Shown here: one piece after another, positions 196 through 43,291 of the stretch
Layout: every line of letters begins with the position of its first letter
Position numbering within the stretch: the stretch's first letter is position 1
IMG/VR virus record: IMGVR_UViG_3300013104_000448
Location: 1-44,083 of that record
DNA length: 44,083 bases
Direction: 5' to 3' (one strand)
DNA from: a virus
Notes under the pieces: model-generated
What the model was told of the DNA's origin: nothing
What the model saw: only the letters and a program-made list of their open reading frames with translations
The model's database searches: none
Made by a program: the position numbers and the translations under genes

Positions 196-290
196 TTTGC
201 TCTACATGTTTTCAGCAGATTTTGGGGCGTTTTCGGGCGTTTTTTGACTCTCGGTGGTACGATGTACCACTTCAAAACTGACGCGTACCA
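189..290. repeat. GTGGTAC/GTACCAC repeats, putative integrase arm-type sites
   Basis: Copies of a short motif lie between attL and the integrase gene: CGGTACC (188-194), GGTGGTAC (253-260), GTACCAC (263-269) and GTACCAC (284-290). TGGTAC recurs twice near the right end (43882-43887, 43893-43898). Short repeats flanking the core on the phage side are typical of tyrosine-integrase arm-binding sites; the assignment is inferred from position and repetition only. Confidence 0.4.
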
Positions 291-298
291 CTTTCGAT

Positions 299-1432
299 AT
301 GGCGACTATCAGGGCAAGAAAACTGGCGGATGGGACTGTGAGCTACACGGCTCAGATCCGCATCAAGCGCGACGGAGTGCAAGTCTACCAAGAGAGCCAG
401 ACCTTCGCCCGGAAACAGGCGGCTCAAGCCTGGGTGCGGCGACGTGAGGCAGAGCTGGATCAGCCTGGTGCGATTGAGCGGGCGAACCGCAAGGGTGTCA
501 CCGTCCAGGACATGATCAAGCAGTATCTGGATGAGATGGAGAAAGTTCGACCACTGGGTAAAACCAAAGAAGCCACTCTCAATGCCATTGCAGCGTCGGA
601 GTTTGGGCACACCGTTGATTCCGATATTAGCAGCCAGCGGTTGGTTGACTTTGCGCTCTGGCGAATGAGCAAAGAGGGTGGTGGCGTTCAGCCGCAAACT
701 GCCGGCAATGATCTGGCCCATCTTGGGGCTGTCCTTTCGATTGCACGGCCGGCTTGGGGGTATGAGGTCGACACCCACGCGATGGCGGACGCTCGGAAGG
801 TTTTGAGGAAGTTAGGTTACAACATGAAAAGCCGTGAGCGTGACCGTCGGCCGACGTTGGGTGAGCTTGATAAGTTGCTCGAACATTTTGCCGGCATCCT
901 GCAGCGCCGTCCCAGTTCGATCAATATGCTTAAAGTGACCGGCTTCGCATTGTTCTCGACGCGACGGCAGGATGAGATATGTCGAATTCTGTGGGCTGAT
1001 GTCGATGAGACTGGCCAACGCGTGCTGGTGCGGGATATGAAGAACCCAGGACAGAAAATGGGCAACGATGTTTGGTGCTACATCCCCGATGAAGCGTGGC
1101 GAATTCTAAAGAGCATGCCTAAGTCGTGCGCTGAGATTTTTCCCTACAATTCGTCGTCTATTTCGACAAGCTGGGCGAAGGCGTGCAAATTTCTGGAGAT
1201 CGAGGACCTGCATTTTCATGATCTGCGACACGATGGCGTAAGCCGCTTGTTTGAAATGGATTGGGACATTCCACGGGTAGCCAGCGTTTCAGGTCATCGG
1301 GATTGGAACTCGTTGCGACGCTATACCCACCTTCGCGGTAAAGGAGACCACTACTCTAAATGGCCCTGGATGGACAAAATCGTCCAAGCCTCCGTAAGGC
1401 TGAGAGTAAAGTCGCTACAGGATAGCCGTTGA
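299..1432 (+). CDS. int: Tyrosine-type site-specific integrase, dusA-targeting
   Basis: This phage integrase (377 aa from the chosen start) recombines attP with the dusA attB. Catalytic residues of the family are visible: Arg in STRRQDE (about residue 222), Lys in RDMKNP (about 248), H-D-L-R (307-310), His in SGHRDW (333) and the nucleophile Tyr in RRYTHL (342). The N-terminal 60 residues look like the AP2-like arm-binding domain (ARKLADGTVSYTAQIRIK). The frame is open from a GTG at 254, but that start lies inside the GTGGTAC repeats. The ATG at 299 gives the usual MATI-type N-terminus; neither has a strong ribosome binding site. The gene sits directly next to attL, as usual. A role in excision is assumed. 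No excisionase was recognised nearby. Confidence 0.93.
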   Translation: MATIRARKLADGTVSYTAQIRIKRDGVQVYQESQTFARKQAAQAWVRRREAELDQPGAIERANRKGVTVQDMIKQYLDEMEKVRPLGKTKEATLNAIAASEFGHTVDSDISSQRLVDFALWRMSKEGGGVQPQTAGNDLAHLGAVLSIARPAWGYEVDTHAMADARKVLRKLGYNMKSRERDRRPTLGELDKLLEHFAGILQRRPSSINMLKVTGFALFSTRRQDEICRILWADVDETGQRVLVRDMKNPGQKMGNDVWCYIPDEAWRILKSMPKSCAEIFPYNSSSISTSWAKACKFLEIEDLHFHDLRHDGVSRLFEMDWDIPRVASVSGHRDWNSLRRYTHLRGKGDHYSKWPWMDKIVQASVRLRVKSLQDSR

Positions 1433-1485
1433 TCACCTTCCGGTATGCCTGGTAATAAAATAGCGGATGGATGATGCATTGATAA

Positions 1486-1505
1486 TGTACGATAATCCTC
1501 GTACA
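1486..1505. promoter_or_regulatory. Inverted repeat in front of the toxin-antitoxin-like pair
   Basis: TGTACGA (1486-1492) and TCGTACA (1499-1505) form a perfect inverted repeat with a 6-bp spacer, 15 bp upstream of the first gene of the pair. A palindrome at this position is the usual place for autoregulation by an antitoxin. The binding protein is not known. Confidence 0.5.
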
Positions 1506-1519
1506 CATTAGGGGTCGCA

Positions 1520-1810
1520 ATGGAAAAAGGCTTCAAAAAAGCCAAGCGCGATGTGATAGCTGCTCTGGAAACTGGCGATTATCAGCATGCTTCTCGCGGC
1601 TCGATCGATGTCAAAAATTTACTGGCGACTGGAGAGGTCTCAGCCCAGGAGGTGATCGACATCATTAAAAAATGCGGCGGCACGCAGCACAGCTGTAGCC
1701 CGCATCACTCTATCTCCAGTATCGAGGTCCATGTACTGAAGACGGGAACATGGTACATAAAATTCTATTTTATCGATCCTAGCGCTTGGTTCATTAGCGT
1801 CCATCGGTGA
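1520..1810 (+). CDS. Small MqsR-like toxin candidate
   Basis: A 96-residue protein. Its size, MEK start and ending (WYIKFYFID...WFISVHR) recall the layout of MqsR-type RNase toxins, which end in an alternating-strand YxKxxxxxxxxxISFK segment. There is also a CSPHHS motif in the middle. An AGGGG ribosome binding site lies about 7 bases before the ATG. The stop codon overlaps the GTG start of the next gene, a zinc-finger protein that would fit an MqsA-type antitoxin. The family assignment is by eye and weak. A conserved hypothetical pair that commonly travels next to integrases is the alternative. Confidence 0.5.
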   Translation: MEKGFKKAKRDVIAALETGDYQHASRGSIDVKNLLATGEVSAQEVIDIIKKCGGTQHSCSPHHSISSIEVHVLKTGTWYIKFYFIDPSAWFISVHR

Positions 1811-2454
1811 GTGAACTTCTCATGAAGCTTCTATTTGAAGGCGATCACGGTAAGGCTCTATGTGAGCAATGCCAGCAGATTGTCACTACGACTTATCTCC
1901 GCCGGAATGTACCCTTCAGTGATGGTCACGGTGAGGCGAAGGACGTCTTGGTCGGGGTTTGCGACGTTTGTGACACTGTCGTAGCAATCCCAGCGCAATC
2001 GACTCCGGCTATCAAAGAGGCGCGGAAGCAGCAATTGACTCCCATCGAAGCTCGACTGCCAGCATTCTGCTTTGATCTATTGGATGCAGCGATGCATGTC
2101 GTGACCAAAGAGGCTAGCGCGCAGACTCGAAAGTTATTCATCAGCTACTACTTAAGGGAGCTGGTAGAGACACAAGCTGCTGACCGTTTGCAGAAAACAC
2201 ATTCCGAATTTTCTCAGTGGTTTTCGAATCAGATGACGTGCCGCCACTTGACTCCCTCGCGCTCGATGAAGCGGCTGTCGATGAAGGTGAATCCTTATGT
2301 GGCTGACGACTTCATAGTACTCCTTGAGGCGACCCATATGACTCGCACAGATCTTCTAAAGTCTGTGATCTGGCACATCCAGGAGGATGTGATTGAACAT
2401 AGAAACCCTGTCGTCATCTCCGACTTGCAGAGGTTGACGAGAGTCGCCATGTAA
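1807..2454 (+). CDS. Zinc-finger protein, possible antitoxin/partner of upstream gene
   Basis: A 215-residue protein starting at GTG 1807, overlapping the previous stop (GTGA). The N-terminal half has two CxxC knuckles (C-E-Q-C near residues 19-22 and C-D-V-C near 55-58) separated by about 30 residues, like the zinc domain of MqsA-type antitoxins. It continues AIPAQSTPAIKEAR. The C-terminal half is helical and ends with a segment (LSMKVNPYVADDFIVLLEATHMTRTDLLKSVIW) resembling a ribbon-helix-helix-like DNA-binding unit rather than the Xre HTH of MqsA. Tight coupling suggests a bicistronic module. Function as antitoxin is inferred, not shown. Confidence 0.5.
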   Translation: MSELLMKLLFEGDHGKALCEQCQQIVTTTYLRRNVPFSDGHGEAKDVLVGVCDVCDTVVAIPAQSTPAIKEARKQQLTPIEARLPAFCFDLLDAAMHVVTKEASAQTRKLFISYYLRELVETQAADRLQKTHSEFSQWFSNQMTCRHLTPSRSMKRLSMKVNPYVADDFIVLLEATHMTRTDLLKSVIWHIQEDVIEHRNPVVISDLQRLTRVAM

Positions 2455-2492
2455 AACGAGAAAGGCCCACGTATTCGGGCCTTTCTCGTTTT
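2453..2492. terminator. Bidirectional intrinsic terminator
   Basis: AAAACGAGAAAGGCCC (2453-2468), an 8-base loop, then GGGCCTTTCTCGTTTT (2477-2492): a perfect 16-bp stem with A-run before and T-run after. It lies between the rightward toxin-antitoxin-like pair and the convergent end of the leftward early operon, so it can stop transcription from both sides. Confidence 0.9.
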
Positions 2493-2549
2493 TGGGTTAG
2501 AAGGAGCTAGGTGCGGCGTTTGGGCGTGAGATGTTGAGTTTTGATCAGG

Positions 2550-2825
2550 CTAGATGGCTCGGCGAGTGCCATAGAGCTGATTGCACTCTTTGACCGCTGC
2601 GGCACGCTGGGTTTCGAGGTACTCGGCGAGGTCTGCCAGGTGGATGCCTTTAGCGCTTTTTTGACTTAACTCCATCCTGGTGATGGGGATTTTGATTTGG
2701 CCAGCAAGTACCTTTCGCTGGAACATCTCCGGCGTCAGGTGTGTGAAGTAGTCCTTGCAGATCTGATCCAAAGGTATGATTGCCCGGCCGTTGTACTGAG
2801 CCATCAGAATAAAAGCTGTGTTCAT
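2550..2825 (-). CDS. PrtN-like transcriptional activator
   Basis: A 91-residue protein of the pyocin activator PrtN family. The characteristic core is present: NTAFILMAQYNGRAIIPLDQ, then YFTHLTPEMFQRKVLAG, then ITRMELSQKSAKGIHLADLAEYL. In P. aeruginosa PrtN activates pyocin promoters after RecA-dependent loss of PrtR. In this phage it may act on early or late phage promoters, but no target site was identified. It is the last gene of the leftward operon. Its ATG overlaps the TGA of the upstream gene (ATGA at 2822-2825). A second PrtN-like protein lies in the same operon at 3826-4152. Confidence 0.85.
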   Translation of the reverse strand: MNTAFILMAQYNGRAIIPLDQICKDYFTHLTPEMFQRKVLAGQIKIPITRMELSQKSAKGIHLADLAEYLETQRAAAVKECNQLYGTRRAI

Positions 2826-3361
2826 ACAGCCTCCTGGGCTGCTGGCCGACTTTCATGTTCGACGGCAGCTTGTAGTGACGCCGGCATCTTCTGCTGCCAG
2901 GCTCTTCGCATCCATGCCGCGTATCCCGCTCTGTATGCGTAATGCTCGCGTGCGAAGTTGTCGGATGTACTCGCACCCGGTGACTTGATATACGTCCCGC
3001 GCCGCCGGCAATACTGCACGCCTTCAGGTACTGGAAACTCTTTCTCGAACTCGGCGCGCTCGTCGATCTGGGCCACTTTGACGGTTTGCTGATGAAGGGG
3101 CTCTTGGTCAGGCAGCGGGGACTTATACCCCACAACAGGCTGCGCGAGCGGGCCATTCTGAGCGTTTAGCGTTGCATCGGGTGACTCCGCCTCGCGCAGC
3201 TTTTCGTGGGGTATAAGTCCCTCGGTGGCGCTGCTGGAAGGAGCAGTAATGCCTGCTGCTGCGCAGCAGAGGCTGTTTGTTTTCTGCGCGTCGAGGCTCG
3301 TCCTGGCGTTTGGGGCGGGTAAGTCGAAGCGCTTGCCGGTGTTGGTGAGGTTCTGGCTCAT
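2822..3361 (-). CDS. Hypothetical phage protein containing a large palindrome
   Basis: A 179-residue protein with no recognised domain. The first 100 residues are low in predicted structure. The C-terminal part (FEKEFPVPEGVQYCRRRGTYIKS...HYAYRAGYAAWMRRA) looks folded and resembles the short YxxGxxAWxxR tails of many phage orphan proteins. Start and stop overlap both neighbours by 4 bases, so it is embedded in a tightly coupled leftward operon. A 104-bp inverted structure (3118-3221) occupies the middle and is translated in frame, as if a palindromic element had been inserted or domesticated. Confidence 0.7.
   Translation of the reverse strand: MSQNLTNTGKRFDLPAPNARTSLDAQKTNSLCCAAAGITAPSSSATEGLIPHEKLREAESPDATLNAQNGPLAQPVVGYKSPLPDQEPLHQQTVKVAQIDERAEFEKEFPVPEGVQYCRRRGTYIKSPGASTSDNFAREHYAYRAGYAAWMRRAWQQKMPASLQAAVEHESRPAAQEAV
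3118..3221. repeat. Long palindrome: 16-bp perfect inverted repeat plus inner 10-bp stem
   Basis: GGGACTTATACCCCAC (3118-3133) is perfectly complementary to GTGGGGTATAAGTCCC (3206-3221). Inside it, after a 5-base offset on each side, GCTGCGCGAG (3139-3148) pairs with CTCGCGCAGC (3191-3200). A 42-base loop remains. The structure lies wholly inside a coding gene. It could be a REP/MITE-like insertion, a recombination site or an mRNA structure. Confidence 0.85.
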
Positions 3362-3774
3362 GCGGCCTCCTGTTTTACTGGCTCCAGCAGGGCGGCCATG
3401 GCGAGAGCTTGTTCGCGGAGCGCGACAGATTCACGTTCGAGTTTTTTTCCGGTACGGAATGCGGCGAATGTCTCGGCGGCGATCCTGAGTTGTTCGGCGA
3501 TGGCCAGCAGGGTTTGGCGTTCTGGTTCGCCCAGTTTCGAGGCGGCCTGTGCGCGCTCGTAGTGGGCATACAGTTGCTTGTGGTGATCCCTTGCCTGGTC
3601 AAGCGAAAGCTCCAGGTTGCGGACGGTTTGCGTGTTGTCGGATTGTTGAATGGCCATGCCTTCATCGATTCCTTCGACGCGGCCGTCGATGAGGCCACCG
3701 CGATATCCAGCCCAATAGGTGAGGCCGACGAACAAGATGAGGACGATCAGTGCGCAGATCTGAACTGCAGTCAT
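3358..3774 (-). CDS. Single-span membrane protein with coiled coil
   Basis: 138 residues. Residues about 5-22 (QICALIVLILFVGLTYWAGY) form one transmembrane segment. The rest is helical and charged with heptad-like stretches (NLELSLDQARDHHKQLYAHYERAQ; LLAIAEQLRIAAETF). This is the layout of small inner-membrane phage early proteins; no specific family is recognised. It overlaps the next gene downstream by ATGA and is part of the leftward early operon. Confidence 0.75.
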   Translation of the reverse strand: MTAVQICALIVLILFVGLTYWAGYRGGLIDGRVEGIDEGMAIQQSDNTQTVRNLELSLDQARDHHKQLYAHYERAQAASKLGEPERQTLLAIAEQLRIAAETFAAFRTGKKLERESVALREQALAMAALLEPVKQEAA

Positions 3775-3825
3775 GTGGTGTGCTCCTGGTTGTTTTGATT
3801 GGCCGGTGGTGGCGGCCGTTTGGAC

Positions 3826-4152
3826 TTATTGGTCTTGCTGGGTTGAATCGGTTTGTTTCTTTGCCTGCTCCTCGTCCGCTGAATAGGCCCTGATGTCGAT
3901 CCATGAGGCCAGGTGGCGGATGTGGACGTACTTGAAGGATTTACGGCTGTCTTTGAGCGTGGTCACGGGCAACGGGATGCGGCCGTTGTCGAGATCGGAC
4001 GCGAACGTCTGCTCGTTGAGGTTGCGGAAGTACTGCAGGCGAAGTTTTTCCAGAGGGATGAGTACGTCGCCGAAGGTGCGGTAGAGCAGCTCAACGGTTA
4101 CGGTTTCCGGTGCCGGCATCAGCCGGAGTGGGTTTTGATGGGTATTACTCAT
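3826..4152 (-). CDS. Second PrtN-like protein
   Basis: A 108-residue protein with the PrtN family signature in diverged form: LYRTFGDVLIPLEKLRLQYF, NLNEQTFASDLDNGRIPLPVTTL, DSRKSFKYVHIRHLASWID. Compared with the protein at 2550-2825, spacing and key positions (IPL, YF, L..G.I.-PV/IT, K....-HL..L) are kept while overall identity is low. It may be a second activator or a DNA-binding partner. The start overlaps the end of the upstream small gene by 8 bases. Confidence 0.75.
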   Translation of the reverse strand: MSNTHQNPLRLMPAPETVTVELLYRTFGDVLIPLEKLRLQYFRNLNEQTFASDLDNGRIPLPVTTLKDSRKSFKYVHIRHLASWIDIRAYSADEEQAKKQTDSTQQDQ

Positions 4153-4605: not shown

Positions 4606-5196
4606 TCATGCAGCGTGTGCGGCAGGAGTTGCCGCAGCAGCCAGGTGGTTGATGGACTCGACGACCTTGCCGTAGATCTCGACATCGGTGCCGCACACGG
4701 TGAAGCACTTGGTGCGGGGGCTTTTGATGCCGATGCTCAGGATGGTGGTGACACCTGGGCGGGTGTGGGTGCGATGGATCGCGACGTGGAGGGGCAGTTC
4801 GAAGCCCATGTCGAGACTCACGGTGCCCCCGGTGATCACCCGCTCGAACACGCGCTGCTTGTCCCGCACATCAAACCGCCCGTATTCGCGGCTTGCGTGA
4901 GGCAGGGGGACCAGGTCTCCGGTGTTGCTAGAGTCGAATGGGCCGTTGGCGATTTCTTCGATGAAGTCGGCCAGCTTGAGGTGCATTTTCTTTTCGTTGT
5001 TCAAGGTTAGCGTGTGGCGTTCGCTGCCCAGCTCAACGACGAAAACGGTCTTGAGAGTGCCGCGTTCAACCCTAAGGCTAAACGGTAAGGCTTCACGCTT
5101 GGGCGCTGACCACAGGACGTGGTTGAAGGTCTCGGTCAAATTGACCTGAGCGTTGAGCAACTGCAGGGTGCGGTTGTCGAGTTTGAACATGTTCAT
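4606..5196 (-). CDS. Hypothetical early protein
   Basis: 196 residues from ATG 5196. This start is chosen because GGAGGG lies 8 bases upstream and because the segment upstream encodes another gene in a different frame. No domain is recognised; the fold looks mixed alpha/beta (FNHVLWSAPKREALPFSLRV, LNNEKKMHLKLADFIEEIANGPFD, CFTVCGTDVEIYGKVVESIN). Its first codons overlap the preceding 58-residue gene by ATGA, so the two are translationally coupled. Confidence 0.75.
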   Translation of the reverse strand: MNMFKLDNRTLQLLNAQVNLTETFNHVLWSAPKREALPFSLRVERGTLKTVFVVELGSERHTLTLNNEKKMHLKLADFIEEIANGPFDSSNTGDLVPLPHASREYGRFDVRDKQRVFERVITGGTVSLDMGFELPLHVAIHRTHTRPGVTTILSIGIKSPRTKCFTVCGTDVEIYGKVVESINHLAAAATPAAHAA

Positions 5197-5369
5197 GCCG
5201 CGTTCCCTCCGCCGTTCGGGGCGAATGGTGAGGGCAAAGTACGTGCTTTCTGCTTCGGTTTGGTGGTGACAAACGAGCAGCCGCATTCGCGGGCCATTCG
5301 GCGAATTTCGAAGATGTGGAGGGGATCAACAGTGGCTGGATGGACGTGCAGGGTGGCTGTGGTGTGCAT
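5193..5369 (-). CDS. 58-residue first gene of the leftward early operon
   Basis: A short open frame reads MHTTATLHVHPATVDPLHIF, then EIRRMARECGCSFVTTKPKQ, and ends GGGNAA. GAGGCG precedes the ATG by 6 bases and the TGA overlaps the next ATG (ATGA at 5193-5196). The position immediately after the promoter/operator region makes it the first gene transcribed. It resembles small phage proteins with an RxxAREcGCxF motif. Function unknown. Confidence 0.65.
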   Translation of the reverse strand: MHTTATLHVHPATVDPLHIFEIRRMARECGCSFVTTKPKQKARTLPSPFAPNGGGNAA

Positions 5370-5404
5370 GGTTTCGCCTCGCTCTGTGGTGGAAGAGTGA
5401 GGTG

Positions 5405-5445
5405 AATATCAACCAATGGTTGATTTATGTCAACCTTCGATTGAT
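5405..5445 (-). promoter_or_regulatory. Leftward early promoter with two repressor operators (PL/OL-like)
   Basis: On the minus strand TTGACA (5433-5428) is followed after 17 bases by GATATT (5410-5405), a good sigma-70 promoter pointing into the early operon. Two 17-bp operator-like sites cover it: ATCAACC-AAT-GGTTGAT (5408-5424) between -35 and -10, and GTCAACC-TTC-GATTGAT (5429-5445) over the -35 box. A further half site GGTTGAT is at 5477-5483. The same motif occurs at the repressor/cro intergenic region. Confidence 0.8.
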
Positions 5446-5550
5446 TTTTGCTTTGCCAGTATGCGGTCGCGAGTTGGGTTGATAATCTGATGGCGTTTTG
5501 CTTTTGAGCTATTTTCAAAGGTTTGCCTAAACGGAATGAAGGAAGCAGGT

Positions 5551-6555
5551 ATGCCAATAACTCTTAATCATGAGCTACTGAATTGGAGCGCTATACGCGA
5601 TATCGGGTGGGGTGACCTGTTACTTGGGAATGGATTCAGTATCAATATTCACGATGGTTTTTGGTACGATAATTTAAAAGATGTTGCTTGTCTTCCGGTA
5701 ATTGCCGAGCCATTACTGGCAGAGTCTCAGGCTCTTTTTGATAGTTACAATACAACAAATTTTGAGGACATTTTAAAGTCTATTTATCATGCCTTTCAGG
5801 TTGATGAATGTCTAGCTCTTGAACAGGCGGTAAGTATTAGTCGGGTGTATGAGAATGTGAAAAACTCTCTTGCGAGTGCCGTGAATCATGCACATGTTCC
5901 GGAGGGGTTTAGCTCTGCTAATCGTATTAGCGATGAATTGGCTAGATTTAGCCATGTGTACACTACGAATTACGATTTAATTCCCTATTGGAGCATTATG
6001 TCCAATGGAACCCATAGATTCAGGGATTTTATGTGGGGACGAGCATTTGATTCCAGTGACGTAGGTGTGTGGGGGAACCCTACATGCATTTACTATCTGC
6101 ACGGCGGCTTGCACCTCGTCGAGAATCTGGAGGGGGAGACGATCAAACGACGTTCAAATGGCTTAAGCTCGCTAAGAGATCTATTTGATATTGCAGAACC
6201 TGACTTGTTTCCGTTATTTATTACTGAAGGGCACTGGCAAAAGAAACTATCAAGAATCAAGCGAAATGATTATCTGAATTTTTGTTTTTCTAGATTTTCG
6301 GGTTCGGGAAGAAATCTTGTAGTGCTAGGGCACTCATTGCATGCGGACTATGATCTTCATGTGGTTGAGGCGATTAAACGCTCTGGTAGGCATAATGTGG
6401 CTATAAGTGTTTGGCCTGGGCTTACGCCTCTCCAGATAATTAATTTTAAAGGTCGTCTGTTGGAAGAGATGCAAGGTTTTAATATTACCTTGCACTTCTT
6501 TGACTCAACAACTCACCCCTTAACGTCTGACTCTATGCGTAATGTGGTCATATAG
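5551..6555 (+). CDS. DUF4917 family SIR2-like protein, putative defence/exclusion gene
   Basis: 334 residues from ATG 5551, preferred over ATG 5536 because AAGGA lies 7 bases before it. The SIR2-like nucleotide-binding layout is visible: LLLGNGFSIN (about residues 23-32), VYTTNYDLIPYW in the middle, YYLHGGLHL, and VVLGHSLHADYD near residue 265. SIR2-like domains in phage-defence proteins typically bind or degrade NAD; that activity is inferred here. The gene is clearly richer in A+T than the surrounding phage genes and stands alone beside the CI-type repressor, the classic place for a lysogeny-expressed moron that blocks superinfection. The nearest family name I recognise is DUF4917. Confidence 0.75.
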   Translation: MPITLNHELLNWSAIRDIGWGDLLLGNGFSINIHDGFWYDNLKDVACLPVIAEPLLAESQALFDSYNTTNFEDILKSIYHAFQVDECLALEQAVSISRVYENVKNSLASAVNHAHVPEGFSSANRISDELARFSHVYTTNYDLIPYWSIMSNGTHRFRDFMWGRAFDSSDVGVWGNPTCIYYLHGGLHLVENLEGETIKRRSNGLSSLRDLFDIAEPDLFPLFITEGHWQKKLSRIKRNDYLNFCFSRFSGSGRNLVVLGHSLHADYDLHVVEAIKRSGRHNVAISVWPGLTPLQIINFKGRLLEEMQGFNITLHFFDSTTHPLTSDSMRNVVI

Positions 6556-6567
6556 ACTGATTTACGA

Positions 6568-7299
6568 TTATTCGGGGATAAAAGAACCGACGACCTTTCC
6601 GCAGATATGAGTCTCCTCCGTAATATCAATGATTGGATATTGCGGATTGATCGGCTTCAAAAACTGTCGTCCGGCATCCTCAACCAGAACCTTGAATGTC
6701 GCCTCGTTTGTACGCGGAACTCTTGCAATCACACGGTCGCCTGTCCTGGTTTCCGCCTCAGGGTCTACAAAGAGAATGCATCCAGCTGGGTAACTTCGAC
6801 CTGGCCCTGGGTTTGTCATCGAATCCCCAATAACCTTTAGAGCATAGCCGTGGGAGCTGATTGCTACGGGACACGAAAGCCACGAATCAGCATCGTAGCT
6901 CTCAAAATTTGAGATCGCTTCGCACCAAGCCCCTGCTTGGACCCAAGAAATCAATGGAACCTTGCCAAAACGTTGGTTGATATCGATGACATTGCTTCCA
7001 TCGTCGGCCATCGGTTGCCGTACGTTGCGTTCACTGGCCGGTTCCTTTGGTAGCACGCCGTATTCCAGCCATTCCCTGCGTACATTAAGCCATGCGCACA
7101 GAGCAACCATGCTATCCGCCTCGGCCATGGAGTCGCCGTTCAGCCACTTGCTAATTGCCTGAGGGGTCTTATCGACTCCCATGCTTTTCAGGTTCTTATG
7201 GATATCCGCACCACGTCCCCGGGTGCGTACACCGGCATCGTCAAGGGCTTTGTGTAGGCGCGCAGTGAAAGCTGCGCGTAGTGCATTCTTATCAACCAT
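6568..7299 (-). CDS. cI: CI/LexA-type prophage repressor, S24 peptidase
   Basis: 243 residues. The N-terminal region (about 1-75) is an HTH domain (TPQAISKWLNGDSMAEADSM as recognition segment). The C-terminal region is an S24 peptidase with catalytic Ser160 (VIGDSMTNP) and Lys203 (ATFKVLVEDAG) and a likely self-cleavage bond Ala122-Gly123 (WVQAGAW). RecA-stimulated cleavage on DNA damage would induce the prophage. An operator-like site overlaps its start codon (7291-7307), so autoregulation is likely. It is convergent with the DUF4917 gene and divergent from the cro-like gene. Confidence 0.93.
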   Translation of the reverse strand: MVDKNALRAAFTARLHKALDDAGVRTRGRGADIHKNLKSMGVDKTPQAISKWLNGDSMAEADSMVALCAWLNVRREWLEYGVLPKEPASERNVRQPMADDGSNVIDINQRFGKVPLISWVQAGAWCEAISNFESYDADSWLSCPVAISSHGYALKVIGDSMTNPGPGRSYPAGCILFVDPEAETRTGDRVIARVPRTNEATFKVLVEDAGRQFLKPINPQYPIIDITEETHICGKVVGSFIPE

Positions 7300-7364
7300 G
7301 AGTTGAGAGTCTCATAATGGTTGCGCAATAGTCAGTTGATGTTTAATATCAACCGTGAGTTGAT
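7291..7364. promoter_or_regulatory. OR-like operator cluster and rightward promoter
   Basis: Three sites fit ATCAACC-N3-RGTTGAT: ATCAACC-ATG-AGTTGAG (7291-7307, over the repressor start codon), CGCAATA-GTC-AGTTGAT (7324-7340, weaker) and ATCAACC-GTG-AGTTGAT (7348-7364). A rightward promoter is plausible: TTGCGC (7321-7326), 17-base spacer, TAATAT (7344-7349). The second and third operators cover the promoter and its start point, so repressor bound there would block cro transcription. Confidence 0.75.
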
Positions 7365-7378
7365 AAATGGAGGTTGCC

Positions 7379-7639
7379 ATGTTGGACCCCGCAAATTTTC
7401 CGAACGCAATAGCGTTTGCTTTTGAAGCTGTGGGCGGCATTGGTGCTGCCGCGAAGGTGTGTGACCGGAGCTATCAGGCGCTGAATAAATGGCGTCTGGC
7501 GGCTAGCTTGCCGCGTACCGATTACACGGGTGAAACCCAATATGCTGCGCTTTTGGCGATGGCCGCGAAGCAAAAGGGCAACGAATTTGAGGCAGTCTGG
7601 TTGCTCAATGCATCTGCACCGCAAAAAGTAGCGGCATAG
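7379..7639 (+). CDS. Cro-like / YdaS-type regulator
   Basis: 86 residues from ATG 7379, chosen because GGAGG (7369-7373) lies 5 bases upstream; the earlier ATG at 7367 overlaps that site. The core (AIAFAFEAVGGIGAAAKVCDRSYQALNKWRLA) is the HTH of Cro/YdaS proteins that pair with CI repressors. It is the first gene of the rightward early transcript and probably competes with the repressor for the operators. Its translation start region is complementary to a stretch in the downstream intergenic RNA (7733-7755). Confidence 0.8.
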   Translation: MLDPANFPNAIAFAFEAVGGIGAAAKVCDRSYQALNKWRLAASLPRTDYTGETQYAALLAMAAKQKGNEFEAVWLLNASAPQKVAA

Positions 7640-37399: not shown

Positions 37400-38344
37400 T
37401 CACCGCGCGTCTGCGGCCATCAAAATCTCGCTCATTTCGCGAAGAGCATCTATATAAAGTGCAAATACACGGCGGATTTCGGGGAAGTCTCCTACATTGA
37501 TATTGTCGCTACCTTGCAAAATCCAACCTTCCTCTCCTTGGATTTCGATAGCGTGACCAAGAATGTTACGTTTTTGTAGAACTTGGGAGACGTAATTTGA
37601 GCTGCTAGCTCTAAGTTCTCGGATTCGATCAACTTGGTTGTCGTTCAAATTAAAGCTTTCTGGATTTTTAGTAGCTACTTTTGATAGGCGGCGAAAATGG
37701 CTAAAGAGCTTTGCGCTATCAATTGCACGAGTACTCAGACGACCCTCAATTCCATTTGGAATAGAAGCTTCGTACTTTTCTTGCATGCTTTTAATAAAGG
37801 CTAGGACTTCAGCATCAAGTTCGGCTAGCCTTTTCTCTCCATCAGGATCAAAGCTAGACATTGATAGAACAGCATCTTTCATTACTATATCGCACTCTGC
37901 AACAACTCTCATGGCAAGTCCTCTCATACCTGAAAGCCTGTCAAGAGAGCGTGCAGTTTGCTCGATTAATGCACCTGTACGATCAATGAAACGTTCGCGG
38001 GCGCTACAGTAGACACCCTCTACTTGTTTATCTGCCATCATGCGGCGCAATGTCGCCTCATCCACGCTTCCAGAGTAAAAAAGTATCGTGGTTGAAGGGA
38101 ACAAACTTCGAACTCGTGGCGCGATATCATCTCCGTTTTCATCTTTTAGACGGTAGTCTAGAAGAATGATGTCGTAAAGGTGGAAAAGGCTGTGGGAGCG
38201 TGCCAATTCCTCAATTTGCTTACTGTTGATGATGTTTTTAATTCGAGCAATAAAGCCTGCAGCGCGTACACGGCGTTTTAGGCTAGATTCCTCCTCTTCG
38301 CTGAACGAATCTTCAATCCAAAGTATGCCAAAATCCAAATTCAT
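37400..38344 (-). CDS. Response regulator with HEPN-like C-terminal effector domain
   Basis: 314 residues. Residues 1-125 are a receiver domain: ILWIED with acidic residues E11/D12, phosphoacceptor D63 in YDIILLDYRL, and S91 in TILFYSGS. The conserved Lys position reads VYCSARE instead and is not clear. The C-terminal 190 residues are all helical and contain R259-N-I-L-G-H264, exactly the RNxxxH signature of HEPN ribonucleases. There is no DNA-binding domain. The ATG overlaps the TGA of the kinase gene (ATGA at 38341-38344), so both are made together. The likely role is a phosphorylation-controlled RNase toxin in phage defence; this is inference from motifs. Confidence 0.7.
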   Translation of the reverse strand: MNLDFGILWIEDSFSEEEESSLKRRVRAAGFIARIKNIINSKQIEELARSHSLFHLYDIILLDYRLKDENGDDIAPRVRSLFPSTTILFYSGSVDEATLRRMMADKQVEGVYCSARERFIDRTGALIEQTARSLDRLSGMRGLAMRVVAECDIVMKDAVLSMSSFDPDGEKRLAELDAEVLAFIKSMQEKYEASIPNGIEGRLSTRAIDSAKLFSHFRRLSKVATKNPESFNLNDNQVDRIRELRASSSNYVSQVLQKRNILGHAIEIQGEEGWILQGSDNINVGDFPEIRRVFALYIDALREMSEILMAADAR

Positions 38345-40668
38345 TGCTGCTCCCCAGGAATTAGTATTTCAAAATCTGCTCGAGTGCCATCACCAGCAAG
38401 ATCAATAGAGCCATTCATGTTTTTGAGTATCTGAGACGCGCTGTATAGACCTAATCCTGTTCCACTGGATGATCCCGTGTATCCGCGTTCAAATATTTTA
38501 GATGGGTTTACTTTTTTGTCATCTATGCCAAGTCCATCATCTGTAACTCTTATGATTACTGAATTTCGACCTTTCTGAGATACTTTGAATTCGATTTTAC
38601 TGGCTTTCGCTTTGCGAGCATTGTCGAGTAAGTTGTCAACTAAAACCGCAATATCAACGGGGGAGAAGTTTCTTACCAAGGATATTTGGTTGTCGTAAAA
38701 AATAGCGTTTGGAATTCCCGGGATGTCAACCAATCGAACCTCAAAGTATTCACTCAAAAATTTAATCAGGTCGCCATGGATATTGTCGGTTTGTAAATCA
38801 ATACGTATGTTTGGGGCGAAAGAAAGAACTTTTCCTAATCTATCGCTGGATAAAGTTGCGCCGGCTATGGACGTAGCGACTCGTTTTGCGGATTGACGGA
38901 TTGAGGCAAGCAGATCTTCCACATCGTCTAATTCTATATCTTCACTCTCAGAATCTGAAAAGGAAATAACATTGCGGATTTCATGTGCTGCGTTGTTTAT
39001 TGCGGATCGAATATGGCCTAAGTGGATTGTCGCTTGGTGCATCAGTAGCTGCACACGCTCGATATCCACGTCTTGACTACTGCCAAGGAAGGCAGCTTGC
39101 TGTTCTAGTCGAGCAATGTGAGCATCCGCGCGATTACGATCTGCTATTGCTTGATGTGCAACCTGACGCGCTTCTTCTCTGGATGACCTTAATTCTTCTA
39201 TTCGGCGCCTAGCATCTTCGATTTGGGTCAGTAGAGATGTGTCGCCCTGGCTTTCGGCGACGATAGACATTGCTTTAAGTGCGTCGTCTGTTACTTGATC
39301 AGGATCATCGGATACCCGAACTAGCTCTTTGTCATAGTATAAAATTTCAACATCTTTCGAGCGTGCAAGCCCGCCTACAATGGCAAGGACTCTTTCGCGA
39401 GCCTTATCAGTTTCAAGCCCAGCAGAAGTATCCCTGTCTTGATCCTGCTTATCTTTCCAGTTGACACCGACCACATAGCGTTCCAAACGAAAGATCATGT
39501 GTCGTAAAATTGCGTCATAGAGGGCTCTGCTGCGAGCGTCTTCTACTAGTCCGGCATCTCTGCTCGATACTTCACGAAACATTTTTGGTAACGCAGAAAC
39601 ATCAACGCGACCAATGATGTCTCGTGTACCTAAGTAACGAGATTGCCCTTGCTGTTTTCTGCGATTTAATCCAAGAGTGTCATCAAACTCTTCGCCGATG
39701 GGGAATATCCGAAACTTGTTTAAAAAGAGAAATACACTTCCAAACTCGACGGGTCTAACCCCCATGCGAGTGGTAAATGTTTGTTTTGCTGATCTGTTTA
39801 AGAAGTAAATATGACCTTCTATCCGAGCGTCAGTGAGTTCACTATAGGGGGAAGGTTCCCGTATGGAGTAAATTTTCCGCCCACGGTCAAATAGCGTAGA
39901 TGTGACAGTGTCATCCTCGATCACTACTTCGATGCGACTGGTTTTCTCTTGAAGTAATGCGGCTATCTCATTGCCAACCTGACCATCGACTCCATCAATT
40001 ATGTCAGTTGTACCGTCGACAAGCCAAGTAGACACAGCAACATGATTTGTTGTTCCGAACGGGTCGATAAGCTTAGCCAAGTCTCTACGCAGTCGCCTAA
40101 TCCTATCCTCGTTCCATTCATGTCGGGTAGATTTAATTACTAACACTGTACCGTGTTTTTTAGGTTCCTTTGGATTAATTATTTCTGGAAATTCATTCGT
40201 GCTTCCCATGTTGACGGATACACTTTGGAATTCCTTAGTGCTGTCATTCTCAAATTTAGTCCAATCTATATACAGTTTTGATATTTTTTCTGTTTCAGTA
40301 ACGATGCTGTATAATTCAAGTTGTTCGCCTAAGGTGTCGCAGGCAAACCGTCCAATGCCCTTGCTTCCCGCGAACTGTCCAGCAGGTTTTATTTTGTCGC
40401 GATAACTATTGGCGTCGATTATTGCTTTTTCAGAATAAGCAACGAAAAGCCATTTATCCCTGATATCGGATTGGGACATTCCTCGGCCATCGTCCACAAT
40501 CGTTATGCTTTGCCTTTCAGGGTTGAATTCGATATCGACTTTTGTAGCGCCTGCATCAAAAGAGTTTTTTACAAGCTCAAAGATAGCAACGAATTCATTT
40601 GTAACTAAATCCCGCCCAATGATGTCTTTAAGGTGGGAGCTAATTCGAAATTTTTCTACAGTAGCCAT
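38341..40668 (-). CDS. Dual-GHKL protein: MORC/Hsp90-like ATPase fused to histidine kinase
   Basis: 775 residues, no membrane segment. The N-terminal GHKL ATPase (about 1-200) shows E31/N35/D38 (FELVKNSFDAGAT), IVDDGRGMSQ (59-66) and GSKGIGRFACDTLG near 100, the MORC/Hsp90/MutL-like pattern. A middle region and a coiled coil (RRIEELRSSREEARQVAHQAIADRNRADAHIARLEQQ) follow. The C-terminal third is a histidine kinase: H-box AAHEIRNVIS with H562, N-box DNLLDNARKA (678-687), DDGLGI (710-715), FERGYT and GTGLGLY (736-742). It presumably senses infection and phosphorylates the HEPN-type regulator next to it. The gene is A+T-rich compared with the phage. Confidence 0.85.
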   Translation of the reverse strand: MATVEKFRISSHLKDIIGRDLVTNEFVAIFELVKNSFDAGATKVDIEFNPERQSITIVDDGRGMSQSDIRDKWLFVAYSEKAIIDANSYRDKIKPAGQFAGSKGIGRFACDTLGEQLELYSIVTETEKISKLYIDWTKFENDSTKEFQSVSVNMGSTNEFPEIINPKEPKKHGTVLVIKSTRHEWNEDRIRRLRRDLAKLIDPFGTTNHVAVSTWLVDGTTDIIDGVDGQVGNEIAALLQEKTSRIEVVIEDDTVTSTLFDRGRKIYSIREPSPYSELTDARIEGHIYFLNRSAKQTFTTRMGVRPVEFGSVFLFLNKFRIFPIGEEFDDTLGLNRRKQQGQSRYLGTRDIIGRVDVSALPKMFREVSSRDAGLVEDARSRALYDAILRHMIFRLERYVVGVNWKDKQDQDRDTSAGLETDKARERVLAIVGGLARSKDVEILYYDKELVRVSDDPDQVTDDALKAMSIVAESQGDTSLLTQIEDARRRIEELRSSREEARQVAHQAIADRNRADAHIARLEQQAAFLGSSQDVDIERVQLLMHQATIHLGHIRSAINNAAHEIRNVISFSDSESEDIELDDVEDLLASIRQSAKRVATSIAGATLSSDRLGKVLSFAPNIRIDLQTDNIHGDLIKFLSEYFEVRLVDIPGIPNAIFYDNQISLVRNFSPVDIAVLVDNLLDNARKAKASKIEFKVSQKGRNSVIIRVTDDGLGIDDKKVNPSKIFERGYTGSSSGTGLGLYSASQILKNMNGSIDLAGDGTRADFEILIPGEQQ

Positions 40669-41427
40669 GCTTTAATCCTAAGAGGATTTATAGTAGTAGG
40701 TCTTTCGGCCTGCATTTATATGTTCACCAAATTTTTTATAAGCGTAGACACGCTGCGACTGTGGTCAAAAATTGAAATTTGACGTCTACTTAAAAAAATC
40801 ATTGCAGGTTTGTGGCGGGCAAGCAAAAAAAAGTGACCAAAATACTTGATTTTTGGATCTGAAAATGCAGGCTGAATTAAGTCGCTCATCTGAGGGCTTC
40901 CAGAGGTAAATTACTGGTGCGGAGGCCTGCGTTGAGCGGCATTGTGGGTAACCTATCTGAGACAGTTAGCACTGGTCGTAGCCCTTCTAGCCCGCGAGAG
41001 TCGTGTGCACCTGATTAATTTTCACTGCCATTATGGTGATAGCACAAGCTTTGGCTGTCTATAGCAAAGGGGAGTTGTGATGCGGAGCAACGGGTATCGC
41101 TAGCGTCCTTTCGGGAAAAAGTGCAGCAGCGAGTAATTCTTTCTGTTGTTCCACTCGAAATTTCGTAAGTGGGGGATACGGTCAAGAAGCTACAGGTGAT
41201 TCCAGGCTTCTCGATATCTATAAGGGAAGCTAGATTTCTCTCGGCTTTGGTCATGTCACACAAATTTCGTCAACGAATAGTGGCAATCTCGACGAAAAGG
41301 TGGGCCTAAGGATGCCGATTTGCTACCCTAGATGAGCTCTTAGCCCCTCTAGCCAAGCCATGCATGCCTGACCATGACCAAGCGCGGTCGCTGGAATTGT
41401 AGGGAACATTGATACGTTAGGTAAAAT
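40669..41427. other. A+T-rich spacer between kinase operon and methyltransferase
   Basis: 759 bases lie between two divergent cargo genes. One minus-strand frame (41015-41263, 82 aa, beginning MCDMTKAERNLASLID) has no recognised similarity and poor support; it may be a remnant. The stretch should contain the divergent promoters of the kinase operon and the cytosine methyltransferase. I see no convincing RNA gene or repeat. Confidence 0.4.
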
Positions 41428-42687
41428 ATGAAATTTATTGATGTGTTTGCTGGCTGTGGCGGTCTTTCGTTGGGGCTTTTGAAAGCTGGTTGCCAAGGAA
41501 TAGCCGCTATCGAAAAAAATCCTATGGCATTTGAAACTTTGCGACATAATCTGATCGATGGCCAACGGTATAGTTTTGACTGGCCTGATTGGCTTCCTAA
41601 GAAAGCGATGAGTTGTGAGCAGCTTTTAAATGATCATCGGGAAAAGCTGCTTACTCTGACAAATGAGATTGATATAATGGTAGGTGGTCCACCCTGCCAA
41701 GGATTCTCATTAGCTGGTAGACGCAACCCCGCTGACCCACGTAATAAGATGGCAGAGCAATACATAGAGCTTGTAAGAATTATTCGTCCGAAATTTATAG
41801 TTATAGAAAACGTTAGTGGATTTAATAGTAAGTTCAATCAGGCTGAAAAGTGTGATGTTGATGATGAAAGATACTTTAAGCAGTCTTACGCAGACTTTAT
41901 TAGTAATGAGCTAGAAAAAGTTGGTTATTTTGTTTCTCGAGGAAAGCTAAATTGTGCAAATTTTGGAGTTCCACAAAATAGGCACAGGTATTTCATTATT
42001 TGCTCCAAGTGCGATGAGGGGGGCAATCTATTTGATAGGCTCCATAAGTACGGTGAAAAGTTTAAGGCCTTTAAGGGGCTAAGCAATGCAAAAGATGTAT
42101 CTGTGCATGATGCAATTGCAGATTTAGAGGTTCATGGGAAGGATTTAGTGTCAAGCAGTGACTCGCCAGTCAAGGGGTTCAGGGAGATTAAATATAGCTT
42201 GCCGGATATAATATCTCCATACCTTAAACTTATGCGTGATGGTCATGAAGGGGCGCCGAATAGCCTAAGATTGCCAAATCACAAAACAAATACAGTTCTT
42301 CAGTTTATTAGAATTCGCCAAGCTTCAGAGCCTGGTAAGACTTTGTCTAAAGAGTCTCGCGATAAGTTGGGTATTAAAAAGCATGCGATAACCGTGCTGG
42401 CAAAAAATAGACCTTCGCCAACAATCACCACATTGCCTGATGACATATTGCACTATAGTGAGCCGCGAATTCTCACTGCAAGAGAAACAGCCAGAATTCA
42501 ATCGTTTCCCGATTGGTTTGAGTTTACAGGGAAGTATACAACTGGCGGAACTGCTAGAAAACTTGATTGCCCAAGATATACTCAGATTGGCAACGCTGTA
42601 CCTCCGTTGTTGTCCGAAGCAATTGGTATGATGTTATATGAGGAGGTCTTAATGTCGGAAATGAATAGTAAGGCTGTTGAGCAATAA
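41428..42687 (+). CDS. DNA (cytosine-5) methyltransferase
   Basis: 419 residues. All main C5-MTase motifs are present in order: I DVFAGCGGLSLG, IV GGPPCQGFS with catalytic Cys90, VI ENVSG, VIII QNRHRYF, a target-recognition region of usual size, IX RPSPTITT and X QIGNAVPP. It methylates a specific C in DNA and probably labels self DNA. A Vsr-type endonuclease gene lies convergent downstream, and the kinase/HEPN pair lies upstream. A+T-rich codon use shows a different origin from the phage core. The sequence specificity cannot be told from here. Confidence 0.93.
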   Translation: MKFIDVFAGCGGLSLGLLKAGCQGIAAIEKNPMAFETLRHNLIDGQRYSFDWPDWLPKKAMSCEQLLNDHREKLLTLTNEIDIMVGGPPCQGFSLAGRRNPADPRNKMAEQYIELVRIIRPKFIVIENVSGFNSKFNQAEKCDVDDERYFKQSYADFISNELEKVGYFVSRGKLNCANFGVPQNRHRYFIICSKCDEGGNLFDRLHKYGEKFKAFKGLSNAKDVSVHDAIADLEVHGKDLVSSSDSPVKGFREIKYSLPDIISPYLKLMRDGHEGAPNSLRLPNHKTNTVLQFIRIRQASEPGKTLSKESRDKLGIKKHAITVLAKNRPSPTITTLPDDILHYSEPRILTARETARIQSFPDWFEFTGKYTTGGTARKLDCPRYTQIGNAVPPLLSEAIGMMLYEEVLMSEMNSKAVEQ

Positions 42688-42880
42688 AAGCAGAATTACG
42701 ACACCACCAGAAATATCAATACTTATTTCAGAAGTAGTAACGGCTTAGTTGGTGTTTGTTGGGGGCTTTGTTGATTTTAGTTCTGTTTACCGCTGAAGTC
42801 TTCGTGGTGTTGAAGGTTCTGAGTTTTGACGCGTAATTCCCTTTCAAAAAAAGGGGGGTGAAAGTTTTTCAGGTTGTGAC

Positions 42881-43291
42881 TTAGTCGTGCTCGATGAACT
42901 CACGTAGTCTAGTTGCCAGAGTATCGGTAAATTTCAGCTCGCATTCCCATATAGTCAGCACGCGCCATCCTTCGGCTTCAAGCAATGAAATGCTTGCTTT
43001 GTCTCGCGCCTGGTTCCGCTCAATTTTAGCCTTCCAGAATTCTACACGCGTTTTAGGGAGCCGCCAGGAACGGCAGCCAATGTGTCCGTGCCAAAAGCAG
43101 CCGTTGACGAAAATCGCTTTTTTCCGGCCTGGAAATATCAGATCAGGACTGCCGGAAAGGTGCTTAGCGTGAAGACGATAGCGATAACCCATACCAAAAA
43201 CCAGTCGTCTTACGACGAGCTCGGGTTTGGTATGTTTTGCCTTAACGCGGCTCATTAGCCAACTGCGTTTTTCGGCTGTCAACCTGTCCAT
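42881..43291 (-). CDS. vsr: Very short patch repair-type endonuclease (Vsr)
   Basis: 136 residues, the usual size. MSRVKAKHTKPELVVRRLVFGMGYRYRLHAKHLSGSPDLIFPGRKKAIFVNGCFWHGH is the Vsr core with catalytic Asp in SPDLIF and the GCFWHGH motif; RVLTIWECELK follows. Vsr nicks T:G mismatches arising by deamination of 5-methylcytosine, and genes of this type normally accompany C5-methyltransferases. Here it is convergent with the methyltransferase, 193 bases apart. Some Vsr relatives act as restriction nucleases, so a restriction role is possible. Confidence 0.93.
   Translation of the reverse strand: MDRLTAEKRSWLMSRVKAKHTKPELVVRRLVFGMGYRYRLHAKHLSGSPDLIFPGRKKAIFVNGCFWHGHIGCRSWRLPKTRVEFWKAKIERNQARDKASISLLEAEGWRVLTIWECELKFTDTLATRLREFIEHD

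Follow-up and report, generated by a model that had tools for sequence, protein, structure and literature searches.

Within the 44,083-nucleotide IMG/VR virus record analysed here (the window), an open reading frame on the plus strand (5551-6555) occupies the interval between a CI-like repressor gene (6568-7299, minus strand), in which Pfam detects an S24 peptidase and an HTH domain, and a conserved leftward gene (4606-5196, minus strand) that matches phrog_15582. We refer to this interval, from the repressor stop codon to the leftward gene (5197-6570), as the slot, and to the two genes as its right and left anchors; the slot measures 1,374 b here versus 275-296 b in relatives in which it is empty. 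A small leftward ORF (5193-5369, minus strand; MHTTATLHVHP...), present in filled and empty relatives alike, lies directly downstream of a predicted leftward promoter, pL (5405-5433, minus strand; TTGACA-17-GATATT, 10/12), and a probable Cro-like gene (phrog_35, E 7e-5) reads rightward at 7367-7639 on the plus strand. An operator pattern scan located four putative, near-palindromic operators of the form TCAACC-N3-GGTTGA: two lie left of the gene, at 5409-5423 (TCAACCAATGGTTGA, within the pL spacer) and 5430-5444 (TCAACCTTCGATTGA), and two at the repressor start, one overlapping the start itself (7292-7306) and one ahead of the Cro-like gene (7349-7363). With up to two mismatches allowed, the scan of the window yielded nine matches against 1.7 expected, and these four are the four best. 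The earlier note had placed the gene between the leftward operators and the repressor gene, and this is the arrangement that we find, with the operators (5409-5444) on its left and the repressor on its right.

Empty relatives have TTGACATAAATCAACC..GTTGATATT, or a closely similar sequence, ~30-60 b beyond the repressor stop codon, with the small leftward ORF next; this element is pL, with an operator inside its spacer. Since pL is conserved in the empty slots, the cargo is located between the repressor stop codon and pL. The gene at 5551-6555 points away from pL and is convergent with the repressor gene. CI should shut pL in a lysogen, and the cargo would be transcribed from a promoter of its own within the 105 b between 5445 and 5550; a promoter scan found no consensus sigma-70-like promoter just upstream of the gene.

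The reading frame is uninterrupted and encodes 334 amino acids, with a Shine-Dalgarno-like AAGGA 7 nt upstream of the ATG at 5551; an alternative in-frame ATG at 5536 would give a product of 339 amino acids. All four motifs by which the gene had been recognized are present in the translation (GNGFSIN at residues 26-32, TTNYD at 138-142, YLHGG at 182-186 and GHSLHADYD at 260-268), and the gene is indeed A+T-rich: its G+C content is 42% (39% at third positions) in a window of 57%, and only 3% of 1,005-b stretches have a lower value. Pfam DUF4917 (PF16263) is matched with 156.8 bits against a gathering cut-off of 28 (E 1.2e-45), residues 23-321 covering positions 1-307 of the 311 in the profile. 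The PADLOC candidate PDC-S21 is matched over its full length (E 3.4e-90; residues 6-329, profile positions 10-332 of 336), and PHROG 30889, of unknown function, is matched at E 1e-99. At E values up to 1, the Pfam search returned DUF4917 and a sub-threshold SIR2_2 match (E 0.036) alone, leaving the classical sirtuin profile (Pfam SIR2, PF02146) unmatched, and no NCBIfam model matched the protein. The gene is a member of the DUF4917/PDC-S21 family and of the SIR2 fold superfamily.

This last assignment comes from the structure. The earlier proposal hinged on a SIR2-like Rossmann fold, and an AlphaFold2 model built with 67 sequences (mean pLDDT 91.6, pTM 0.91) has one, of the Rossmann type and with a helical small domain. 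In a Foldseek search of the PDB, the SIR2 subunit of SIR2-HerA was the best match (E 5e-11, probability 1.00); the first two dozen matches were SIR2-HerA chains, followed by ThsA, KomC and DSR2. VIA alignment gave Z 16.1 to the SIR2-HerA structure 8w9l (rmsd 5.3 over 282 residues) and Z 11-13 to KomBC, ThsA, DSR2, SPARSA, Avs5 and true sirtuins, so that Z values of 11-16 extend over 200-300 residues, and the matches cover residues 5-329, nearly the whole chain. At the sequence level, phmmer of the single protein against PDB sequences gave nothing convincing, and a profile of the 67-member family reached 8w9l at E 9e-5 with ttNYDLl and LHG aligned; because two de novo designed proteins score about equally on a helical stretch, the alignment of these motifs carries more weight than the E value.

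Eight residues of these and the other motifs are invariant in the 67 DUF4917 proteins (G26, N27, G28, N140, Y141, D142, H184 and G185), as are K199, K232 and H270. The protein accordingly has the GxG-type loop (GNG, 26-28) and the Asn-His dyad (N140 and H184, the predicted active-site residues) of SIR2 NADases. The dyad residues are 44 apart, exactly as N142 and H186 of SPARSA, both of which are required for NAD+ hydrolysis (PMC10781750); the catalytic residues of DSR2 are N133 and H171 (PMC10973363). In a wider set of homologues, one copy, on a Moraxella plasmid (L004, 5992-6981), has TTCYD for TTNYD, that is, Cys in place of the Asn, and its catalysis is possibly lost or altered.

The slot itself is variable. 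The repressor and the leftward gene are conserved among the window, a syntenic phage contig (L001) and a human-gut phage contig (L151), in which an unrelated 603-aa gene occupies the slot. For a survey, 80 contigs were fetched per anchor and the gap was measured wherever both anchors were present, slots with a repressor as little as ~30% identical being counted too; the resulting 105 contigs represent 86 distinct slots, 76 of them with a repressor identity of at least 60%. Eight of the 86 are empty (275-296 b, mean G+C 54%) and 78 hold cargo of 1,029-3,942 b (median length 1.7 kb), with a mean G+C of 43% (range 40-49%). Nearly all slot ORFs of at least 150 aa (93 of 98) are oriented opposite to the repressor. 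The 112 slot ORFs of at least 90 aa fall into 54 protein clusters; by comparison, 1,000 flank ORFs of at least 120 aa form 115.

Much of the cargo that was scanned matches defence families. Twenty-three representatives (20 plus those of L274, L151 and the DUF4917 cluster) were scanned individually with PADLOC, and 16 had matches at E 1e-6 or better, several of them partial or weak (E 1e-7 to 1e-13). They comprise Septu PtuB, AbiC, DRT5, PARIS AriB, a CBASS cyclase, PD-T7-3, DzbB, a PifA-like PDC-S20, another SIR2-like protein (PDC-S25/ThsA-like) and DUF4917 itself (PDC-S21), together with the candidates PDC-S28, S49, S60, S31, M34B and M36A; a Pfam search with all 50 representatives further finds Cap15, SLATT, NACHT-associated, KAP, ABC-3C, reverse transcriptase and PIN domains. 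The guess that this is a place for defence genes is thereby upheld more strongly than the earlier note could have foreseen, as the same slot in relatives holds Septu, DRT5, PARIS, CBASS cyclase, AbiC and PD-T7-3 genes. When 50 clusters of flanking genes from these phages were put through PADLOC as a control, a methyltransferase turned up together with several genes of Septu-like and PDC-M01 type; these defence-like genes in the flanks rule out a clean contrast between slot and flank, and our claim for the slot is therefore one of richness and turnover, not of exclusivity. Some flank genes of L154-L312 match Septu and PDC-M01 pairs, which indicates at least one other defence cargo site in these phages. 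With its conserved flanks, interchangeable defence cargo and empty sites, the slot between the repressor and the leftward gene is a prophage defence hotspot.

For seven of these 23 clusters, PADLOC gave no match at E 1e-6. Those in the slots of L275, L233, L268/L307, L312 and L253, each found in up to four slots, are candidate new defence genes. The 603-aa slot protein of the human-gut contig (L151, 784-2592, minus strand), which had no Pfam or PADLOC match, contains an EIKG motif resembling that of a restriction-type nuclease.

Defence cargo beside a prophage repressor has precedents. Lambdoid phages carry RexAB and BstA next to the repressor, between cI and N (PMC8585504), and K139-like Vibrio prophages have a hotspot between cI and the integrase gene, repressor-adjacent cargo being found in Bacillus prophages as well (PMC9122126). 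Variable defence cargo adjoining the repressor is common to these sites and to ours, which is a further instance of a documented arrangement. BstA, however, sits downstream of the repressor, whose promoter it presumably shares; the window cargo, in contrast, converges on the repressor and diverges from pL, and the phages concerned form a Pseudomonas phage family. In the open-access literature, outside which many journals lie, we found no account of this hotspot in Pseudomonas phages.

P. aeruginosa phages have terminases 66-68% identical to the one in the window, and two relatives, Haddon and vB_Pae_U5, carry no cargo of comparable size at the slot. The left edge of the window (162-1, minus strand), which we take to be the start of dusA (the N-terminal part), is followed by a tyrosine-type integrase gene (254-1432, plus strand); the window is therefore probably an integrated prophage, and the order points to an integration site in dusA. 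Of the 149 genomes grouped under the genus of Pseudomonas sp. GM80, a match to the leftward gene is present in 30 and is strong in about 23. Thirteen of the 24 loci examined have a repressor match upstream and a filled slot (1.3-3.9 kb, 41-46% G+C), with cargo mostly related to the phage slot clusters; the other 11 showed no such repressor and carry a different gene of ~250 aa close upstream of the leftward gene.

The closest relative of the window protein is the copy in the slot of L001 (78% amino-acid and 71% nucleotide identity); the remaining DUF4917 homologues are ~25-50% identical and scattered. They include 34 plasmid records, from Vibrio to Deinococcus, Leptospira and Bacillus, 56 IMG/VR contigs and at least 575 genomic sites in many phyla, the last of these found with an alignment query after the single protein had found nothing in the genome contigs. 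A tblastn search of 50,697 phage records returned no DUF4917 relative of the window protein. Between the window and L001 copies, pN is 0.15 and pS 0.77 (given in place of dN and dS because dS is saturated), and the gene has long been kept under purifying selection. The description of the gene as foreign-looking is accordingly right for its low G+C; a recent acquisition, however, was dropped, because the L001 copy has diverged from that of the window just as far as the genes on either side have. DUF4917 fills the slot in four phages (the window, L001, L016, which equals L077 of Pseudomonas sp. GM80, and L017/L064). The tree resolves these slot copies as two pairs. One pair clusters with copies from chromosomes of other genera (support 94), a hint that the gene entered the slot twice, though a single origin would also be possible. 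Pseudomonas chromosomes contain a group of closely related copies as well (38 rows of the tree).

Outside phages, the neighbours of DUF4917 are variable. Twelve plasmid neighbourhoods show no constant partner gene, and seven of them, read from annotations alone, have defence or restriction genes nearby: Hhe in Vibrio, HaeIII endonuclease in Moraxella, retron Eco8 and ABC-three-component (ABC-3C) genes in Klebsiella, type I R-M in Rhizobium, a TIR protein in Aliarcobacter, the AbiEii toxin in Azotobacter, and a DNA methyltransferase and helicase in Roseomonas. None of the 12 has an annotated HerA beside the homologue; in two, a gene for an unnamed ATP-binding protein lies no more than 3 kb away. 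On the Vibrio europaeus plasmid (L003, 5849-6957), DUF4917 is among genes preceded by DUF3265 ORFs, with Hhe close by; such ORFs are often met in integron cassettes. A Pfam scan of the neighbours of the nearest chromosomal relatives gave no clear defence-island signal, the genes being a mixture of NERD nuclease, integrases, transposases, P2-like phage genes and housekeeping genes.

Comparison with characterized systems sets the protein apart. The SIR2 subunit of SIR2-HerA (Nezha; 8sub, 8w9l) is its best fold match, over residues 9-330, with the TTNYDL and HG motifs aligned; nevertheless, the identity is ~15%, and neither in the window nor in L001 does a HerA ATPase gene adjoin it, the window neighbours being the repressor and leftward phage genes. 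DSR2, ThsA of Thoeris, Avs5 and SPARSA share the SIR2 domain with its Asn-His pair, and theirs deplete NAD in abortive infection, but each of them either works with a partner or ends in a sensor domain at the C terminus; in the window protein, the SIR2 fold fills the chain (alignment 5-329 of 334 aa), and the C-terminal CTD, SLOG or STAND domain of DSR2, ThsA and Avs5 is absent. Because partner or sensor is lacking, the gene is not SIR2-HerA, DSR2, Thoeris or Avs5. PDC-S21, which shares the full-length profile match and the single-gene organization, is a computational candidate only, to which the present analysis adds a prophage context. That DUF4917 proteins are little studied as defence genes, as had been supposed, needs qualifying, since PADLOC-DB lists PDC-S21; the one paper found to name DUF4917 appears to describe a plasmid, and the open-access literature, outside which many journals lie, yielded no tested DUF4917 or PDC-S21 protein.

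The gene is prophage cargo in this hotspot and most likely encodes a standalone SIR2 NADase that acts by abortive infection, a reading to which we assign a probability of roughly 60%. A compact SIR2-family enzyme would be made in the lysogen, and infection by another phage would provide a trigger that switches on NAD+ cleavage in a pocket to which N140, H184 and the GNG loop presumably contribute; growth would then halt, or the cell die, before the invader multiplies, and the lysogen population would survive together with its prophage. The nearest solved folds, all of them anti-phage SIR2 proteins (SIR2-HerA, ThsA, KomC, DSR2, SPARSA and Avs5), argue for this reading, as do the invariant Asn-His pair, the variety of defence genes in the slots of relatives, the defence neighbours on plasmids and the purifying selection. 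Against it counts that the protein has neither sensor domain nor partner, unlike known SIR2 defence effectors; the Cys of the Moraxella copy, the defence-like genes among the flanks, the mixed neighbours of the chromosomal relatives and the missing consensus promoter weigh on the same side. Abortive infection is more likely than superinfection exclusion in the narrow sense of blocked entry.

A defence protein with the same fold may instead have another chemistry or role: it might ADP-ribosylate a protein of the phage or the host, or make a signal nucleotide. Sirtuin folds perform several NAD-dependent reactions (PMC12700824), and K199, K232 and H270 are invariant residues beyond the Asn-His pair; the closest folds, however, are NAD-hydrolysing defence SIR2s, and the window slot has no second effector gene that could read a signal, so that we regard this as unlikely. 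It is very unlikely, in our estimation, that the gene is an ordinary metabolic one hitch-hiking in a phage: the closely related chromosomal copies in Pseudomonas could fit a housekeeping role, but a patchy spread across many phyla, plasmids and phages does not, nor do the defence neighbours on plasmids and the slot context.

Two further readings draw on the place of the gene beside the repressor. Active NAD-cleaving enzymes are toxic, and a toxin gene adjoining the repressor might serve to retain the prophage in the cell rather than to act against phages; since neither the window slot nor L001 has an antitoxin-like partner gene, and anti-phage families otherwise fill the slot, such an addiction function seems highly improbable. 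A part in the phage decision circuit, for instance as a modulator of the repressor or of pL, would suit a gene between the left operators and the repressor, but the place is empty in eight related slots and holds unrelated proteins in others, so the gene cannot be needed for the circuit; we give this hardly any weight.

If the preferred reading of an NAD+-cleaving defence enzyme is extended, DUF4917 may be a minimal SIR2 immune protein that senses infection and depletes NAD+ alone, perhaps through infection-driven assembly, and one cassette of an exchangeable immunity-region slot of Pseudomonas phages whose unassigned cargoes include further defence systems; we put this forward tentatively, as a possibility rather than an expectation. 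If it is true, a widespread family of "domain of unknown function" proteins, on plasmids, phages and chromosomes of many phyla, would be a one-gene NAD-depleting defence, and would offer a simple case for how a sensor-less SIR2 enzyme gets triggered. The slot matters at least as much, as its two conserved anchors and clean empty sites allow the defence cargo of Pseudomonas prophages to be harvested; the seven clusters of 23 unmatched by PADLOC are ready candidates.

The window has a second A+T-rich stretch near its right end (38341-43291). It contains a gene for a 775-aa GHKL-type ATPase (minus strand), a C5-cytosine methyltransferase gene (41428-42687, plus strand) and a Vsr-like endonuclease gene (42881-43291, minus strand), all recognized from motifs by eye, and looks like a second defence or modification cargo.
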